64,000 nt of DNA from Anaerolineae bacterium (GCA_020848035.1 JADLAX010000082.1:1-64000), one strand, 5' to 3'. Counted from the stretch's first letter, positions 24,978-34,079 are shown. The notes: generated from the letters alone by a model not told the origin. Numbers and translations: made by a program.

Positions 24978-27900
24978 ATGAGCTTATCACTCCTCAACCA
25001 ACCCGCCCTTGAAGGAACGTCTGGCCAGAACTTGCGCATGCTGGCCCAACGCCTTGCCGCCTATATTCCCACAACCCTCACCCGAAAAATTCTGCAAGAC
25101 GAATCCCTGATACCCGGCCAGGCGGAGATGATCACGGCGGCGACGATGTTTGCCGATATGTCTGGCTTTACGCATGTGGCTGAGGCGCTGGCGGTAGACG
25201 GGGCGCGTGGCACGGAGGCGCTTAGCCGTACCTTGCTGATGACCTTCACCGCCCTCATCAACGCCATTCACGATGCGGGTGGTTCGGTGAGCCATTTTCA
25301 TGGCGACGCGATGATGATCTACTTCCCGGATGCTGACGGCAAGGCCGCCTCTCGCGCCCTGGCCTCGGCCCAATTTATGCAGCGGCTGATGCAGACCAAT
25401 TTTGGCCGGGTGGAAGCGATGCCGATGGGCAAGGAGGAAAACGGCTACACGCTGTCTATCAAAATTGGGGTGGGCTACGGCCGTTGCCTGGAAATGCTCG
25501 TCGGTAATGAGGCTAACCGGGAATTTGTGCTGGCGGGAACGGCCGTTGATGAAGCCGTCGCCGCCCAGTTGCAGGCCGAAGCGGGGCAGGTGGTGGCCAG
25601 CCAGGCCGCCCTGCACGCCGCCGCGCTGCCCGTCACCGGGCCGTTTCGCGTGGTGGCCGAACTGCCCCCAGTGCCCGGCGCCCACGAAGGGTTGTTTTGG
25701 GAAGCGTACGAACAGCCTGCGTTGTCCCGATTGGTAACGGCCGTGCCCGCTTTTCTGCCCCCCGCCGTATTTGAACGGCTGCAAGATCGCGGCAGCCAAT
25801 CCATTTCTGAACACCGTACCGTCACCTCCATGTTTGTCCAGTTTGACGGAATCGATTTTGCTGACCCGGCAGCGGGCGAACGATTACAGACCTACTACCT
25901 CTGGGCCTGGCAGATGGTGCAGCGCTACGGCGGCCCCAACAGCCGGGTCAACCGCGTCCTCACCGGCGACAAGGGCAGCCAGCTGCACATCTTGTTTGGT
26001 GCGCCGGTGGCCCCGGACGCCCCAGAGCAGGCGCTGCGCTGTGCCCTGGCTTTGCAGCAGCGACGGCCGTCTTTTATCACCTGCCAGCGCATTGGGCTGA
26101 CCGTGGGCCGGGTCTTTGCCGGGGCCGTTGGCGCGATGAATCGCCGCGAGTACACCGTGGTCGGGCGCATGGTTAACCTCTCGGCCCGGCTGACCCAGAT
26201 TTGCCCGCCGGACGGCATTTTGGTGGATGCTGCGACGGCCGTTCGAGTACAGGCGCACATCACCAGCCGACCGTTACCCCCGGTGCAGTTGAAGGGACAT
26301 ACCGAGCCGGTGGCGATTTACCAGGTGGTGGGCGAACAAACGGCCGTCACCCAGGCCCAGGCGCGTTTTCAGCAGTGGCAGCAGCCGCCCGCCGGGCGCA
26401 CCAAGGAGCTGCGGCAGCTCTACAAACGGTTGGCGGCGGCGCTGGCCGGTGAAGGTGGTCTGCTGGCCATTCACGGCTCCTACGGCAGCGGGCAGATGCC
26501 TTTTTTGGCCGCCGGGGTGCGCCACTGGCTGGAGGCGGGGGGCCATGCCCTGGTGGGCGTCTGCCAGCAGCACACCTCCGACGTGCCGTACGCGCCCTGG
26601 ACCTCAGTCTGGCGTGACTTTTTTGAGCTGACGGCCGAAATGCCCCCTGCTGAACAGCTGACCCAGGTAAGCGAGCGGGTTCACGCGCTGACACCCGATG
26701 CACCCCATGCCCTGAATTTGTGGCGCGAACTGCTCGGCGCACCTTTGCGCTCGACGGCGCTGCTGCTGGACCTGCCCGCCGTGGTGCGGCAGATGCGCCT
26801 TTTTAAGCTGGTGATGAAAAGCTTACGCCAGGCGGTGACGGAACGGCCGTATCTCATCGTGTTGGAAGATATTCACCTGGCCGACCAGGCGTCGCTGGAC
26901 CTGCTGGATGCGCTGGTGCAGCAGAGCCGTGAGCTGCCCCTGCTGCTGCTGGTGACGTACCGCACTGGCGCAAACCTGAACTTTCATACCCTCAGCCAGC
27001 CGGGCAGCCGCCAGATTACTCTGAACGACTTCACGCCGCAGCAGGCGCGCCGCCTCATTCGTGAGCGCTTGGGGACCGACCAGCTGCCGCTGCTGCTGGA
27101 GCAGCGCCTGGGGCTGCGTGACCGCCTGGGCCGCGAATCGGCCGTTAACCCGCTGTTTTTGGAAGAATCGCTCCAGCTGATGCTTTCGTTGCAGGTGGTG
27201 GAGCTGGACAAAAACAAGTATGGCGACGGCCGTTTGCGCATTAACGAAGCTGAGCTGGCCAACATGCAGGTGTCGGACACCATCTACACGCTGCTGCTGT
27301 CGCGCCTGGACCAGCTGCCCGCCGCTGAGCGCGGCTTGCTGCAAACCGCCTCGGTGATTGGCCGCGAGTTTGACCTGGCCACGTTAGTCGCCATTTCGCC
27401 AGGGTTGAGCCGGGAAACGGCCGTGGATCTGCTGAATACCCTGGTGCAAACTGACCTGGTGCTGCAACTTTCGTCTGGGTTGGTGCCGACCTACCTGTTC
27501 CAGCACAATCTGGTGCACGAGGTGGTTTACCAGAGCCTGACCTACGCCCGGCGGCAGACGCTGCACGCCACCATCGCTGATCTCATCATTCGCCAATCGG
27601 GTGAGCTGCTGGCGACGCAGTATCCCGTGCTGGCCTACCATTTTAGCCAGACTAACCAGCACCAGGACGGCTTGAAGTATGCCCTGGCTGCCGCCCGCGA
27701 CGCCGAGCTGACGCACAACTATCGTGGGGCGGCCGAATTTTACAAGCAGGCGGCGCATCATTTAGAGGCGTTGGGGCAAAAGGCGGCGTGGGAAACGGCC
27801 GTCGCTGTCTGTGTCGCGCGGGCCAGGCTGCTGCTGCGCCTGGGGCAGTTTGGCCAGACCAGTTCAATGATTGCCGAAGCGATGAAGCTGTGCCTCGATC

Positions 27901-29138
27901 ATAACGCTATTGATCGGACGCTGGCCCTGTACAACCTGACAGCCGAACTTCGGCTGCGCCAGGCGCGTTACACCGAGGTGCCCGGTCTGACCAACAAGGT
28001 CATCAATTCTTTGCTGGCCGACACGCCGCCGGAGGAGCAGGGCCGGGCGTACCTCTTGTGGGGCCAATCCCTGGCGGCGTTGGGTGATTGGGCTGCGGCG
28101 CTGCGCAAATTGAGCCACGCCGAGACGATTTTGCAGCCAACGGACCAGCCGCACCTCCTGGCCCCGCTGCTCATGGCCCTGGCTGAAGTGCAAACGCAGC
28201 GCCAGCTGGACGATACGGCGCTGCAACCGCTGGAAACTGCCCTCACTCGCCTGACCGATGAGACCGACCCCCTGCTGTGGGGGCAGGTGCAGCTTACTTT
28301 GTCGCAGGTGCTGCTGCGTTTGGGCCGGGCAGAAGCGGCCCTGACGGCGGCGGAAACGGCCGTCTCCCGGCTGCGCGCGGCGGGGGCTAACTTACTGGCA
28401 CACGGCCTGGTCCATCGGGCTGCGGTGTACATCTACCTGGGCCAATTTGAAGCGGCGCTGGGCGATTTGCAGATGGCTGGCGAGCTGTTCGACGGCATGG
28501 ATGATGTGGCCGGGCAGCTCAAGCTGTACCTGCTGTGGGGCGTGGAGTACCACGGCGGCCAGGGGGATTGGCGGCAGGCACGGCGACGCCTGGTGCGCGT
28601 GGGGCAGCTGCTCACCGCCCAACCCAAGGACGACGGCATGGTGATGCAGGAAGGTGTTCGCCTGTGGTTGGGCATGGGTTTGGTGGCCCTGCACACGGCG
28701 CGTTGGGACCAGGCCCGCTCGCTGCTGCACAAGGTGCAGACGGCCGTTGCCTCACGCCAATTTGTCTGGTGGCAGCCTGCGGCGCACTGCGCCTGGGGTT
28801 TGCTGCTGCTGGCCACGGCGGGCGAAGGGGCGGCACGGCAAACGGCCGTTACCGAGGCATTCCGCTCCTTCCAAAAAGGGTTCCAGGCGGTGCAGGCCGG
28901 GGGCTGCCCCGATGAACTGCCGGTGCTGCTGCTGCAAATGGGGTTAACGGCCGTTGAGCTGGGCGACACGCGGGGCTGGGATTATTTGGAAACGGCCGTG
29001 GAAGCAGCCCACCAGCGTGCCCGCCAGACCGACCGCCACGCCGTCTTGCAGCAAGCCCGCCAGGCACTTACCCACGCGCCAGACCGCCACCTGCGCCAGA
29101 TTGGTCACTCCCTCCCTTCGCTGAATTCGGTTCGATAG
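24978..29138 (+). CDS. Soluble adenylyl cyclase-like protein: two class III cyclase domains, NTPase, TPR
   Basis: This 1386-residue soluble protein has two class III cyclase domains (about 50-215 and 280-455), an AAA16/STAND-type NTPase (about 475-880) and a long TPR tail. The layout matches mammalian soluble adenylyl cyclase (ADCY10). The first domain supplies metal ligands Asp60 (ADMSGFT) and Asp110 (HGDAMM). The second has a base-binding Lys332 in GDKGSQL and Asn400 and Arg404 in EYTVVGRMVNLSARL, as needed for a pseudo-heterodimer with one active site that makes cAMP. The NTPase P-loop is damaged: GSYGSGQM at 500-507 has Gln506 where lysine belongs. It starts an operon with a membrane protein and a paralogue. 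Fifteen or so ACGGCCGT copies fall in the gene. Confidence 0.85.
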   Translation: MSLSLLNQPALEGTSGQNLRMLAQRLAAYIPTTLTRKILQDESLIPGQAEMITAATMFADMSGFTHVAEALAVDGARGTEALSRTLLMTFTALINAIHDAGGSVSHFHGDAMMIYFPDADGKAASRALASAQFMQRLMQTNFGRVEAMPMGKEENGYTLSIKIGVGYGRCLEMLVGNEANREFVLAGTAVDEAVAAQLQAEAGQVVASQAALHAAALPVTGPFRVVAELPPVPGAHEGLFWEAYEQPALSRLVTAVPAFLPPAVFERLQDRGSQSISEHRTVTSMFVQFDGIDFADPAAGERLQTYYLWAWQMVQRYGGPNSRVNRVLTGDKGSQLHILFGAPVAPDAPEQALRCALALQQRRPSFITCQRIGLTVGRVFAGAVGAMNRREYTVVGRMVNLSARLTQICPPDGILVDAATAVRVQAHITSRPLPPVQLKGHTEPVAIYQVVGEQTAVTQAQARFQQWQQPPAGRTKELRQLYKRLAAALAGEGGLLAIHGSYGSGQMPFLAAGVRHWLEAGGHALVGVCQQHTSDVPYAPWTSVWRDFFELTAEMPPAEQLTQVSERVHALTPDAPHALNLWRELLGAPLRSTALLLDLPAVVRQMRLFKLVMKSLRQAVTERPYLIVLEDIHLADQASLDLLDALVQQSRELPLLLLVTYRTGANLNFHTLSQPGSRQITLNDFTPQQARRLIRERLGTDQLPLLLEQRLGLRDRLGRESAVNPLFLEESLQLMLSLQVVELDKNKYGDGRLRINEAELANMQVSDTIYTLLLSRLDQLPAAERGLLQTASVIGREFDLATLVAISPGLSRETAVDLLNTLVQTDLVLQLSSGLVPTYLFQHNLVHEVVYQSLTYARRQTLHATIADLIIRQSGELLATQYPVLAYHFSQTNQHQDGLKYALAAARDAELTHNYRGAAEFYKQAAHHLEALGQKAAWETAVAVCVARARLLLRLGQFGQTSSMIAEAMKLCLDHNAIDRTLALYNLTAELRLRQARYTEVPGLTNKVINSLLADTPPEEQGRAYLLWGQSLAALGDWAAALRKLSHAETILQPTDQPHLLAPLLMALAEVQTQRQLDDTALQPLETALTRLTDETDPLLWGQVQLTLSQVLLRLGRAEAALTAAETAVSRLRAAGANLLAHGLVHRAAVYIYLGQFEAALGDLQMAGELFDGMDDVAGQLKLYLLWGVEYHGGQGDWRQARRRLVRVGQLLTAQPKDDGMVMQEGVRLWLGMGLVALHTARWDQARSLLHKVQTAVASRQFVWWQPAAHCAWGLLLLATAGEGAARQTAVTEAFRSFQKGFQAVQAGGCPDELPVLLLQMGLTAVELGDTRGWDYLETAVEAAHQRARQTDRHAVLQQARQALTHAPDRHLRQIGHSLPSLNSVR

Positions 29139-29168
29139 TTTAGAGACGCTGCTATAAAATAGGTCTTT

Positions 29169-29699
29169 ATGCTACCGAGTATTGAAAATATTCAATTTGA
29201 AGAGAACAAAGAACGCCTCAAGATTGTCCTGCCGGTAAAAAAGCAGTGGATTTATCTGGTTTTATACAGCATCATGCTGCTGCTCTGGGTGGGCATGTTT
29301 GTCTACGGCCTGATCTTTACCTGGCAAATCGCCTTTTCTGGCGAACGGTTTGCCTTTGTTTTTACCGTCATGCTGGTGGGATTGCTGTACATCTTGTTTC
29401 GCCTGGGTAAGGTGGTGTGGGGGCAGTGGCAATATTATGCCGCCAACCGGGAGATCTTATTTATCCACCCAGAAATGCTGATTGTGCGGCGGCCGGTTTC
29501 GATCTTTGGCATCACCACCGCCTATGACCGGGCCCACGTGACGCCGTTTTATTACAGCGACAAACACAGCTGTCCGGCCTTCGATTACGGGCACCAGCAC
29601 GTCTATTTTGGGCACGATCTGCTGGCCGATCCGGCAAAACGGCTGATTGGTTATCTCAATGCCCGTTACTATCCCCACCGCGATGAAGATGACGACTAA
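29169..29699 (+). CDS. Two-helix membrane protein, possibly PH-like
   Basis: This 176-residue protein has two membrane helices (about 28-50 and 62-82) and a cytoplasmic C-terminal part of about 90 residues with strands such as ILFIHPEMLIVRRPVSIFG, a pattern seen in bacterial PH-like domains (YdbT or DUF304-like). The acidic tail is HRDEDDD. No family is certain. It lies 30 bases after the first cyclase gene and its stop codon directly abuts the start of the second, so all three are one operon. It could anchor or sense for the soluble cyclases. No ACGGCCGT occurs in it. Confidence 0.7.
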   Translation: MLPSIENIQFEENKERLKIVLPVKKQWIYLVLYSIMLLLWVGMFVYGLIFTWQIAFSGERFAFVFTVMLVGLLYILFRLGKVVWGQWQYYAANREILFIHPEMLIVRRPVSIFGITTAYDRAHVTPFYYSDKHSCPAFDYGHQHVYFGHDLLADPAKRLIGYLNARYYPHRDEDDD

Positions 29700-32600
29700 A
29701 TGATGGTCGGCATGAACACAGTGAGCGAAGAAAAATTGGTTACCGGTGAGATGCTGCGCCAGTTGGCGGCGTACATTCCCGCCACCTTGGCGGATCGCAT
29801 TTTGCGCGATGGGCTGCCCACGCCGGGCGAACCGTATGCGCTGACGGCCGCTACGCTCTTTTCCGACATCTCGGGTTTTACCAGCATGTCGGAAGAGCTG
29901 GCCTCGGACGGGCCGCGCGGTGCCGAGGAGCTGAACCGCGTTTTGTTGGTGACCTTCACGGCGATGATTGACGTGATTCACGAGCTGGGCGGCGCGGTAA
30001 ACCACTTTTACGGCGATGCCATGTCGGTCTATTTTCCCGACACGGACGGTACGGCCGCTCTGCGTGCCCTGTTTTGTGCCCAGATGATGCAGCAGCTGAT
30101 GCTCACCAGCTTCAACCGGGTGGTAACCAACCGCCCGCCGGGCAAACACCCCTTCTTTGAGCTGACGATAAAAATTGGCGTGGGTTACGGCCGTTGCCAG
30201 GAGCTTGTGGTAGGTCATCCGCAGCACAGCCTGGAATTTGTGCTGACGGGAGCGGCCGTCGACGAAGCTGCTATGGCTGAACGGCAGGCCAGTTCGGGGG
30301 ACATCATTGCCAGCAAGGCGGTGCTGCGGCAGGCAGGGCTGCCCGCTGCGGCGGCGTTTGAGAAGCTGGCAACGGCCGTATCACGCCCCGCCGCCCATCC
30401 CATTCTCGATTGGCCCACCTACGATGAAGCGGCTCAGCAGCGCCTGGCGGCGGTCATTTTGCCCTTTGTGCCACCCGCACTCTACCGTCGCCTCGTTTCT
30501 ACCGGAGCCACAGAGATTGCCGAACACCGTCCGGTGACCACCATTTTTGTCCAGTTTAATTACAAAAACCGGCAAGACGACTCCTCTGCCATTGAAACGG
30601 CCGATTTAGGCCAGCAGCTCCAGGCGTATTACCAATGGGCCTGCGAAGTGGTCAGCCGCTTTGGCCAGGAAAATGCCCGGGTCAACCGCGTACTGACCGG
30701 CGACAAGGGCAACCAGCTGCACATCATGTTTGGCGCGCCGGTGGCCCCCGATGCGCCAGAGCAGGCGCTGCGCTGCCTGCTGGCGATGCAGCGCAGCAAA
30801 CCATCGTTCATCGAGACGCAGCGCATTGGCGTGGCGGTGGGCAAGGTATTTGCCGGGCCGGTGGGCTCTTCGGCGCGGCGCGAGTACACGGTGGTGGGCG
30901 ACATTGTCAACCTGTCGGCGCGGCTGATGCAGGTGTGTGAGCCCGGCGCAATCTGGACCGATCAGGCGACCGCCGAGCGCACCCGCCAGGTGATCGAATG
31001 TGAACCACTGCCGACCATTCATCTCAAGGGCAAGCAAACGGCCGTTACCCCCCACCTGGTGCAGCGCGATCGGGCCGTGACAACCCTGATGAAGGCGTAC
31101 ATTGATCGGTGGGAACGGCCGTTGGTCGGGCGCGAGGAAGAGCTGGATTTGCTGCTGGGCGGCATGGATGCGGCGCTGCGCGGGGTGGGGGGAGCAGCGG
31201 CCGTTTATGGTGGCACCGGCGTGGGTAAGTCGCGCTTGCTGGCCACTGGCGTGCGCCATTGGCTGGCCCAAGACGGCCTGGGATTGATTGGCGTTTGTTA
31301 CCCACACACGCAGGATTCGCCTTACAGCCCGTGGCGCGATGTCTGGCGCGAATATTTTGGCCTGACCACCGGCACGCCGGTTACCCAGCAAATTGCCGCT
31401 GTCATCATGAAAACCCATGACCTGGTGCCCGATGTGGGTGACGACATGGGGTTGTGGCGTGAACTACTTGGTCTGCCCATGCCCCAGGCGGCGTCGCTGC
31501 GCGATCTGACGGCCGAAGCGCGCCAGGTCCGGCTCTTTTCGCTGGTGCGGCGCTGCTGCCTGGCGATTGCGGCGCAGCAGCCGCTGCTCATCGTGCTGGA
31601 AGGGTTGCAGTGGGCCGACCAGGCATCAGTGGCGCTGCTGGACGAGCTGAGCGGACATTTGGACGGCGCGGCCTTGTTTCTCGGCTTCACCTTTCGTTCG
31701 CGGGAGCGGGTAGAGATTGCCACGATGGAACGGCCGTTGTGTATTCCTATTCCCCTGGCCGATTTATCACCCGCTGCGGCGCGGCAGCTGTTGAGCCATC
31801 TGGTGGGCACGGCCGAACTGCCGCAGGCGGTGGAGCAGCATCTGGGGATGCGTGATCGGGAAGGTCGTGACAGCCCGGTGAATCCCCTGTTTTTGGAAGA
31901 GGCGCTGAACGTGATGATGGGGGCGGGGGTGCTTCGGGTAAACGGCCGTGTTCAGGTAGATGAGGTGGAGCTGGCCCGCATGCAGGTGCCCGATACGATT
32001 CATGGCCTGCTGCTGGCTCGCCTGGATCGCCTGCCGCCCGCCGGGCGCGATTTGCTGCAAGTGGCGTCGGTGATTGGCCGCCAGTTTTCCGCCGAACCGC
32101 TGCAAGTGATCGCCCAAACGCCGCCGCAGCAAACGGTGCTGCGCCTGCTGACCGACCTGTCGGAAGCGGAAATGACGCGGCTGGTAACGGCCGATCCAGA
32201 GTGGATTTACCTCTTCCAGCACGCCATGACGCACGAAGTGGCGTACGAAAGTTTGCCCTACGCGCGGCGGCAGCAGCTGCATGCGGCCGTAGCCAGCTGG
32301 CTGGCGCACAAATACCAGCACAACCTCAAACCGCTGCATTCGGTGCTGGCCTACCACTACAGCCGGGCCGACAACCACCGCGAGGCGCTGCAATACGCCA
32401 TCCTGGCCGCTGATGAAGCGCGCAACATCTTTGCCAACCGGGAAGCGATTGATTTGTACACGTTGGCCGAGCGTCATTTGCAGGCATTGGCCGAGGCGGG
32501 GTTGTGGGAAACGGCCGTACATCTCTATCTGTCGCGGGGAGAATCACTCCGCTTTGTGGGCGATTTTAACGACGCCATTCGGGACGCCGAACAGGCTGCC

Positions 32601-33833
32601 GAGCTGGCCATCCGCGAAAATGATAAGGAGCAGTGGGCCAAATCGTACAACTTGATCGCCGAGCTTAAATGCCGCCAGGCCCACTTTGAAGAAGCGCAGC
32701 AGCTTACCGAGCAGATCATTGCAGAGTTGCAGCATGACATTACGGTTGATGAATTGGCCCGGGCCTACCAATGGTCGGGAATGGCCGCCGGGTATGCTGG
32801 CGATTTTGACCTGGCTTTAACCCGGCTGCAAAGCGCCGAATCGCTGTGCCAGGCCTACAGCGGTCGCGTCCGGCTGGCCCGGGTTTTAGAGGCGAAAGCG
32901 TTTATTTACTACTCGCAGCGAAAGCTAGATTTGGCTCTGTCGGCGATGAAACAAAGTGTGGATTTGTCCCGCGATGTGAGCATCCCGGCAAACCTGGCAT
33001 CCTCGTTGAACAACATCGCTTTGGTGCAGTTTGAGCTGGGGCAGGCCGCCGATGCGCTGGAAACCTACAACGAGGCGCTGCAATATGTTCAGGATACGAG
33101 CCAGCATTTTCTGGCCCAGGTGCTGGGCAATCGCGGTGAGGTTCTTTGTTATCTGGGTAAATTTGACCAGGCCCACGAGAGTTTTCTGCGCTCCATTGAG
33201 CTTTACACCCGCATGGACGATGCGCAAGGATTGGCCGATGTCTATGTGTTGATGGGCTACGAATATGGCTGCTCTCTCAAGCAAGTGGCGCAAGCGGCCG
33301 ATTGTTTGCAAAGCGCGGCCGGAATTCTGGATTTAAGGCCGAACGATTATGCCGAAATCCGGCTGCGCTGGCTCATTGGCATGGGTTACCTTCACCTGTT
33401 AAAAAAGGAGCCTTTTGAAGCTGTCGGTTTGTTTGAACAGGCGGAGGCGTTACTTGAGGAGCGAGAAGTTGCCTGGTGGCACCCCATCCTTCTTTATTTT
33501 CAAGGCTCCACCTTTTTTCAGATTGGGGATGTGACGGTGGCGCGGGAAAAATTACGCCGGGCCGTGGAGTTGTCTAATGATCGGGGGTGCCCAGACTATA
33601 AGCCGTTGATTTATTTGCAGTTGGCGCGTTTAGCTGAAGACAGAGCAGAACAAGAAGAGCTGCTGAATAAGTCGATTCAAGCCGCGTGGCAGCGCTCGCG
33701 ATTGATTGATCGGATTGAAATTTTACGTGGGGTGGGGGAATTAATGGTAGGGTTTCTAGACGATTTTGCGGTGAAAAAAGGGAGAGAGTTTCTTTCTCTG
33801 GCAGTGGATTTGGAACGTGAAATGGAAAAATAA
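29700..33833 (+). CDS. Soluble adenylyl cyclase-like protein, paralogue with intact P-loop
   Basis: This 1377-residue protein repeats the architecture of the gene upstream: cyclase 1 with Asp56 (SDISGFT) and Asp106 (YGDAMSV), cyclase 2 with Lys336 (GDKGNQL), Asn404 and Arg408 (EYTVVGDIVNLSARL), an NTPase and TPR repeats. Here the P-loop GGTGVGKS at 504-511 keeps Lys510, so this copy can probably bind and hydrolyse ATP in the NTPase domain. The ATG at 29700 follows directly on the upstream TAA; ATGs at 29703 and 29712 are alternatives. The last third, from about 32.5 kb, lacks ACGGCCGT. A clean terminator follows the stop. Confidence 0.85.
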   Translation: MMVGMNTVSEEKLVTGEMLRQLAAYIPATLADRILRDGLPTPGEPYALTAATLFSDISGFTSMSEELASDGPRGAEELNRVLLVTFTAMIDVIHELGGAVNHFYGDAMSVYFPDTDGTAALRALFCAQMMQQLMLTSFNRVVTNRPPGKHPFFELTIKIGVGYGRCQELVVGHPQHSLEFVLTGAAVDEAAMAERQASSGDIIASKAVLRQAGLPAAAAFEKLATAVSRPAAHPILDWPTYDEAAQQRLAAVILPFVPPALYRRLVSTGATEIAEHRPVTTIFVQFNYKNRQDDSSAIETADLGQQLQAYYQWACEVVSRFGQENARVNRVLTGDKGNQLHIMFGAPVAPDAPEQALRCLLAMQRSKPSFIETQRIGVAVGKVFAGPVGSSARREYTVVGDIVNLSARLMQVCEPGAIWTDQATAERTRQVIECEPLPTIHLKGKQTAVTPHLVQRDRAVTTLMKAYIDRWERPLVGREEELDLLLGGMDAALRGVGGAAAVYGGTGVGKSRLLATGVRHWLAQDGLGLIGVCYPHTQDSPYSPWRDVWREYFGLTTGTPVTQQIAAVIMKTHDLVPDVGDDMGLWRELLGLPMPQAASLRDLTAEARQVRLFSLVRRCCLAIAAQQPLLIVLEGLQWADQASVALLDELSGHLDGAALFLGFTFRSRERVEIATMERPLCIPIPLADLSPAAARQLLSHLVGTAELPQAVEQHLGMRDREGRDSPVNPLFLEEALNVMMGAGVLRVNGRVQVDEVELARMQVPDTIHGLLLARLDRLPPAGRDLLQVASVIGRQFSAEPLQVIAQTPPQQTVLRLLTDLSEAEMTRLVTADPEWIYLFQHAMTHEVAYESLPYARRQQLHAAVASWLAHKYQHNLKPLHSVLAYHYSRADNHREALQYAILAADEARNIFANREAIDLYTLAERHLQALAEAGLWETAVHLYLSRGESLRFVGDFNDAIRDAEQAAELAIRENDKEQWAKSYNLIAELKCRQAHFEEAQQLTEQIIAELQHDITVDELARAYQWSGMAAGYAGDFDLALTRLQSAESLCQAYSGRVRLARVLEAKAFIYYSQRKLDLALSAMKQSVDLSRDVSIPANLASSLNNIALVQFELGQAADALETYNEALQYVQDTSQHFLAQVLGNRGEVLCYLGKFDQAHESFLRSIELYTRMDDAQGLADVYVLMGYEYGCSLKQVAQAADCLQSAAGILDLRPNDYAEIRLRWLIGMGYLHLLKKEPFEAVGLFEQAEALLEEREVAWWHPILLYFQGSTFFQIGDVTVAREKLRRAVELSNDRGCPDYKPLIYLQLARLAEDRAEQEELLNKSIQAAWQRSRLIDRIEILRGVGELMVGFLDDFAVKKGREFLSLAVDLEREMEK

Positions 33834-33859
33834 AAAAGCTCCCATTTGGGAGCTTTTTT
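33832..33859. terminator. Bidirectional terminator after the cyclase operon
   Basis: AAAAAAGCTCCC pairs with GGGAGCTTTTTT around a four-base loop. It lies at the cyclase stop codon and two bases before the end of the convergent small gene, so it can serve both. Confidence 0.92.
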
Positions 33860-33860
33860 A

Positions 33861-34079
33861 TTATCCAGCACCGGGCAACCAGCGCCCTTTGGTGGTGCGG
33901 TCACCTAGACCACCGGCAAAATCGTCGAAGTTGTCTTCGTCGAGGTTTTGCAGCAGGCTGCGCTCTTCATCGGTTACAGGATAACCTTCAAGAGCCTTGT
34001 TTAAATCCTTGAAGAGCAGTGTGCGGTACGTTTTGTCGGTTAAAGCACGTTCTACAACTTGATCTAATGCGTCTGACAC
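33861..34079 (-). CDS. Small RiPP-leader-like (NHLP-clan) protein
   Basis: I start this at GTG 34079 because GGGAGG lies exactly six bases upstream; the longer ATG start at 34100 would include that ribosome site. The 72 residues read like NHLP-clan precursors of the Os1348 or Franean1_4349 type: a helix with VVERALTDKTYRTLL, then ALEGYPVTDEERSLLQNL, then DNFDDFAGGLGDRTTKG and a short end RWLPGAG. Such leaders guide modifying enzymes to a core after a Gly-Gly-like site; here DFAGG precedes LGDRTTKGRW. No maturase or transporter is adjacent, so the function as a RiPP is unproven. Confidence 0.6.
   Translation of the reverse strand: MSDALDQVVERALTDKTYRTLLFKDLNKALEGYPVTDEERSLLQNLDEDNFDDFAGGLGDRTTKGRWLPGAG

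Follow-up and report, generated by a model that had tools for sequence, protein, structure and literature searches.

A soluble adenylyl cyclase-like tandem protein of Chloroflexota with a conserved membrane-protein neighbour and an exchangeable TPR tail

What might two giant cyclase-like proteins be doing on either side of a small membrane protein? The question is raised by a stretch of 64,000 nucleotides from an Anaerolineae bacterium (GCA_020848035.1 JADLAX010000082.1:1-64000; hereafter the window), in which three genes, here called A, M and B, follow one another on the same strand. The original prediction, made from this DNA alone, saw in them an operon whose products might form one regulated complex at the membrane, perhaps sensing bicarbonate or nucleotide as does mammalian soluble adenylyl cyclase (sAC, ADCY10). 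Our comparison with relatives leads us to favour, with slightly better than even confidence, a reading that is centred on B: a membrane-linked STAND receptor adenylyl cyclase with a swappable TPR sensor. The parts of the locus are as follows.

24978..29138, plus strand: gene A, encoding 1386 aa in the order C1-C2-NTPase-TPR; a tandem cyclase of sAC type from the A clade, which has no P-loop
26475..26498, plus strand: GSYGSGQM (A residues 500-507), a degenerate Walker A with neither the Lys nor the Ser/Thr
29169..29699, plus strand: gene M, a membrane protein of 176 aa, starting 30 nt after A
about 29247-29438, plus strand: the two helices of M (residues 27-54 and 59-90 in the AlphaFold model)
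about 29448-29669, plus strand: possible PH-like domain of M, C-terminal to the helices
29700..33833, plus strand: gene B, a sAC-type tandem cyclase of 1377 aa with an intact STAND P-loop
29835..30383, plus strand: C1 domain of B (residues about 46-228), with metal Asp D56 and D106, and K158
30513..31055, plus strand: C2 domain of B (residues about 272-452), with K336, T397, N404 and R408
31119..31664, plus strand: STAND/AAA_16 NTPase of B, Walker A GGTGVGKS at 31209-31232
32538..33830, plus strand: TPR tail of B (residues 947-1377), exchanged between species
32540..33885, plus strand: exchanged segment, from codon 947 of B to about 50 nt past the B stop
33829..33862, no strand assigned: terminator-like hairpin just after the B stop, within the exchanged segment

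The coordinates, lengths and gaps first given for the three genes all proved correct, and B begins at the very base after the M stop codon. The description of A and B as large paralogues in ADCY10 order is likewise borne out, because both carry two Guanylate_cyc domains, AAA_16 and TPRs (Pfam), show 41% identity across their full length and find human ADCY10, with both catalytic domains, as their best PDB match (phmmer E 2e-22 for A and 2e-26 for B). The locus is not a matter of chance reading frames, given the strong purifying selection on A and the orthologues in many genera.

Is the catalytic core intact? Equivalents of D56, D106, K158, K336, T397, N404 and R408 (B numbering) are present in both proteins; the human counterpart of the Thr, a residue typical of class IIIb cyclases, is T405. 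Apart from K158, these residues were scored across 47 sequences, and the resulting six are conserved in all B sequences that cover them and in the A of the window; K158 (human K144) is invariant. The human enzyme uses D47, D99 and K144 in C1 and K334, N412 and R416 in C2 for catalysis (PMC12867704). The original prediction had placed a metal Asp pair in the first domain and the remaining set in the second, and had named loss of such residues as what would speak against it; alignment finds the Asp pair in C1, the Lys, Thr, Asn and Arg in C2, and all of them retained in both A and B of the window. Since C1 is without the Asn/Arg set, each chain should form a single competent active site, which agrees with the original proposal. 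The AlphaFold model of B residues 1-470 (pLDDT 87, pTM 0.86) likewise retrieves human sAC first in a fold search (E 9e-31, TM 0.73), and human sAC accounts for all of the 24 best PDB matches. In a domain tree confined to the C1 and C2 domains of tandem cyclases, human C1 sits with the bacterial C1 domains and human C2 with the bacterial C2 domains, the split being supported at 100/99. The tandem therefore looks shared by descent, an indication that sAC has its C1/C2 duplication in common with these bacterial proteins. By its residues, B would be expected to make cAMP.

A cyclic nucleotide could also be the output of a conflict system. B would then be an NLR/Avs-like recognition receptor whose signal is executed by M or by a CRP-like protein, in the manner of Pycsar. 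We regard this as rather unlikely, even though an effector-STAND-variable TPR order and an exchangeable tail are features of antiviral STAND proteins too (PMC10907252). PADLOC models of PycC do match C1 (best E 7e-17), but such matches could come from generic class III homology; a two-helix protein does adjoin the cyclase, but M has no cNMP_binding match in Pfam and no match in PADLOC, and it is present in genomes that lack B. For want of those effector features in M, membership in Pycsar itself was rejected. Moreover, the identified neighbours are housekeeping-like (a glycosyltransferase, a uridine kinase, an M23 peptidase, a cytochrome c protein and, by inspection, PEPCK), and K336 and T397 point to ATP rather than to a pyrimidine substrate. 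We thus continue with B as a membrane-linked receptor that would signal through cAMP.

How firmly, then, is B tied to its membrane neighbour? The two helices originally ascribed to M are present in its AlphaFold model, a mid-confidence one (pLDDT 75) that runs in the order two helices, six strands, one helix. The C-terminal, possibly PH-like, domain formed by the latter part had been missed. Top PDB matches in the fold search are mostly PH domains, though at E >= 0.24 and none at E <= 0.001, and Pfam offers a single weak match to bPH_7 (E 0.22); because the fold-match E-values are weak, "PH-like" should be taken as a lead only. The genomic association is much clearer. Among loci from metagenome-assembled genomes of a public collection and from the family genomes, counted only where there was room, M is the gene immediately 5' of B, in the same orientation, at 22 of 23, spanning 12 genera, with gaps of -4 to 361 nt; the one exception is G214, where B has no M upstream. 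Conservation of the membrane protein beside a cyclase, as first supposed, is therefore upheld. The divergence of M follows that of the B core (r 0.91) more closely than that of the B tail (r 0.56).

M also leads a life apart. Copies of M with no B are common, and many of them sit next to the gene for an ABC transporter ATPase and that ATPase's neighbour. At several such loci (L070, L073-L076, L079, L091, L093), M is followed by an opposite-strand gene, c3, that encodes about 276 aa without a Pfam family and then, mostly, by the ABC transporter ATPase c2; the same c3 and c2 genes come after M-B in other genomes. Since M is found without B, and B without M in G214, M has a role of its own, which may be an older one near the ABC transporter. 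Conceivably, M and B are mere transcriptional neighbours with separate roles, M being the older resident beside which B arrived or was lost, and the shared c3/c2 surroundings fit such a history. We nevertheless hold it to be doubtful, because the M-B order has been held in 12 genera while the remaining neighbours changed, and keep to a functional link between M and B.

Does A belong to the same unit? The original prediction treated A and B as an equivalent pair, a view that the comparison does not support. Although A retains a STAND NTPase domain, all 13 covered A-clade genes have lost Walker A, and these genes form one clade (support 97/99; genera g1, g11, g7 and g9), whereas GxxGxGK[ST] is present in every B-clade gene with coverage. 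A is thus an ancient paralogue in a single clade that lost the P-loop, a feature overlooked at first, as was the tail exchange in B described below. It is nonetheless a working protein, as dN/dS values of 0.02-0.16 in C1, C2 and the NTPase region attest to strong purifying selection. In genus g11 the catalytic Arg has changed to His or Gln in six of six A genes (L026:3525, L101, L104, L105, L106 and L116), whereas the g1 genes keep it; the change suggests that catalysis has been lost in g11, and these genes are candidate pseudocyclases under selection.

Mapping A and B over 52 family genomes led us to reject a conserved A-M-B operon. A adjoins M in only four genomes of three genera, namely G406, G181, G410 and the window's own genome, G000; it lies away from M-B in G404, G405, G363 and G396, and is separated from M by another gene in G346. 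In most other genomes that bear it, A is elsewhere or unlinked, and this holds for half of the four species in the genus to which the window belongs. In G204 and G281, A-clade genes occur where no B was detected, and A-clade proteins can thus exist alone. These two genes (L107 and L108), like a tandem cyclase on contig C31 of G398 (L109), have no M nearby. Of the proposed operon, the M-B part stands and the linkage to A does not, so that the lack of conservation in relatives that had been named as counter-evidence applies to one half of it: the conserved unit is M-B, not A-M-B.

These findings also weigh on the idea that A, M and B make up one bicarbonate- or nucleotide-sensing membrane complex. 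Contiguous genes with short gaps in G000, G406, G181 and G410 and the purifying selection on A are what such a complex would predict; however, A is unlinked in most of the genomes that bear it and persists in G204 and G281, where B was not found. The proposed bicarbonate sensing fares no better: the position of human K95 is His and that of R176 is Val or Ala in A and B, and the mammalian binding pocket was rejected as the sensor because its binding residues are replaced. Neutral replacements at these positions accompany lost bicarbonate control in animals, and K95 and R176 vary also in non-mammalian sAC (PMC12867704), so that they define mammalian regulation rather than the sAC family. Their replacement in these bacterial relatives argues against bicarbonate sensing of the mammalian type, and we judge the three-protein complex to be improbable. 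The receptor that we envision consists of B with M at its side.

What would such a receptor read? A possible answer comes from the C-terminal tail of B, which has passed between species again and again, whereas the enzyme half and M have remained in place. The B proteins of the window and of the sister genome G406 are about 95% identical over residues 400-940 and 37% identical after residue 947, whereas the A proteins of the same two genomes are near 90% identical throughout. At the DNA level, homology of the window to G404, G405 and G406 stops at 32536-32539 and is back at 33886, 52 nt past the B stop, in G405 and G406 with the same gene order; the G404 contig ends before this 3' border. Resumption in unchanged order makes an assembly chimera an unlikely cause of the break. 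Similar borders separate G363 from G396 in genus g11, the 5' border recurring also with G397, and no such border is seen between G363 and G346. Core trees (support 99-100 overall) recover g1 and g11 each as a clade at 100/100. The tail trees group g1 and g11 tails with those of other genera, and AU tests reject shared tail ancestry for g1 (p 5e-5), g11 (p 2.5e-4) and G000 with G406 (p 3e-6). In addition, GC3 drops from core to tail in each of the 23 B genes compared (mean -0.184, p 2e-7, a value that overstates independence because the genes are related, although the block pattern recurs in separate clades), and the 13 A genes show no such shift (mean +0.009, p 0.38). It is very improbable that the tails differ through rapid point changes under relaxed constraint instead of exchange. 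TPRs do generally outpace the core, and the tails of A are no exception, but against this reading stand the sharp DNA borders at a single codon with conserved flanks, the tail kin in other genera with rejection by AU tests, a GC3 shift confined to B, and a tail dN/dS of about 0.09-0.12 where measurable.

From where do the tails come? Neither free-standing or silent tail cassettes in the family genomes nor a second copy of the G406 tail in the window's own genome were found. Silent cassettes were accordingly rejected as donors, and transfer from one species to another at the B locus is likelier than conversion from silent copies. Across the phylum, most matches to the B core end at about residue 921-935, near the exchange border, so that the tail may be variable beyond this family.

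How might these parts work together? We envision a scenario whereby the C1-C2 pair of B forms a single sAC-like active site making cAMP, whereby the NTPase, its P-loop intact, serves as a nucleotide-dependent switch restraining the cyclase, and whereby binding of a ligand to the TPR tail releases it. In keeping with this scenario, full-length human sAC has an activity that is lowered in dependence on a P-loop-like sequence (PMC12802110), and the assignment of the tail as sensor would follow the analogy of STAND receptors, in which a variable C-terminal sensor comes after the NTPase (PMC10907252). The switch might or might not hydrolyse its nucleotide, because the second Walker B acidic position of B is often Gly or Asn. 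M might hold B, or the ligand of B, at the inner membrane via its two helices and the possible PH-like domain. Horizontal replacement of the tail at a fixed border would give relatives that share output and membrane partner and read different ligands. Of all this, the architecture, the residues, the paralogy, the P-loop loss in one clade, the M-B linkage and the tail exchange are observed, while cAMP as product, the direction of gating, the sensor role of the TPRs and recruitment by M to the membrane are inferred. CRP-like proteins would respond to the cAMP, and the window's genome, with other cyclases and 30 matches to cNMP-binding domains, holds possible receivers. A would probably still be a cyclase in the window's genus, freed of the nucleotide switch, and in g11, where the transition-state Arg is lost, probably a non-catalytic or regulatory partner. 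More broadly, one might speculate, and we do so tentatively, that the sAC-type receptor cyclases of this Chloroflexota family are recognition receptors with NLR-like logic and cAMP output, with circulating TPR sensors and a switch-dead paralogue devoid of the P-loop.

The bacterial sAC architecture by itself is already known, as tandem relatives are carried by plasmids of Leptospira and rhizobia, and relatives at E <= 1e-60, most of them covering the tandem, turned up in 74 of 400 Chloroflexota genomes. Roelofs and Van Haastert reportedly discussed, in 2002, bacterial sAC-like genes with one cyclase domain. A tandem cyclase on plasmid lbp2 of Leptospira borgpetersenii (NZ_CP012032.1, WP_002741124.1), annotated only as "adenylate/guanylate cyclase domain-containing protein", has all six catalytic residues. 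Two further tandem cyclases in the window's genome, each about 30% identical to B, have Gly at the Thr397 position (C82:97938-101366; L003, L099) or His at the K336 position (C90:174889-178521; L004, L100), and their base specificity may differ for that reason.

The interest of the locus lies instead in the M-B unit, in the P-loop-less paralogue clade and, above all, in the exchangeable sensor tail. In the literature searched, which covered few subscription papers and is thus a weak guide, no description of these three features was found, nor of a bacterial tandem sAC with a membrane partner or swapped tails. A 2025 study of full-length human sAC (PMC12802110) found that activity is lowered by sequence containing the P-loop, identified no regulator specific to an isoform, and directs attention to membrane partners. 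The family described here offers natural experiments on what the C-terminal STAND/TPR region of sAC senses: a clade with the P-loop beside one without it, a conserved membrane neighbour, and tails swapped onto near-identical cores.

How does the family compare with known systems? The C2-NTPase-TPR part of A and B aligns with the TOMM system kinase/cyclase fusion TIGR03903, but membership is rejected, as the scores of 158.9 and 226.7 bits lie below the cut-off of 705.75 and no protein kinase, N-terminal or otherwise, is found by Pfam in A or B. M-B resembles Pycsar (PycC with PycTM or PycTIR) in setting a class III cyclase beside a membrane protein, and departs from it in that no cyclic-nucleotide-binding domain is detected in M, the residues of B are of the adenine type, and NTPase and TPRs are fused to the cyclase. 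With Avs and bacterial NACHT proteins, B shares the effector-STAND-variable C-terminal TPR logic, but its effector is a cyclase instead of a nuclease or protease and its neighbouring genes provide no defence context. Closer are the bacterial sAC-type tandem cyclases of Leptospira, rhizobial plasmids and many Chloroflexota, with the same domain order at about 25-35% identity. Human sAC has the same C1-C2 tandem with one active site and the same catalytic residues, a STAND/P-loop region and a long C-terminal region, and it shares the tandem duplication in the tree. Relative to it, the bicarbonate residues of the window genes are replaced (His, Val/Ala), and the family possesses a membrane neighbour, an exchangeable TPR tail and a sister clade that has dispensed with the P-loop.
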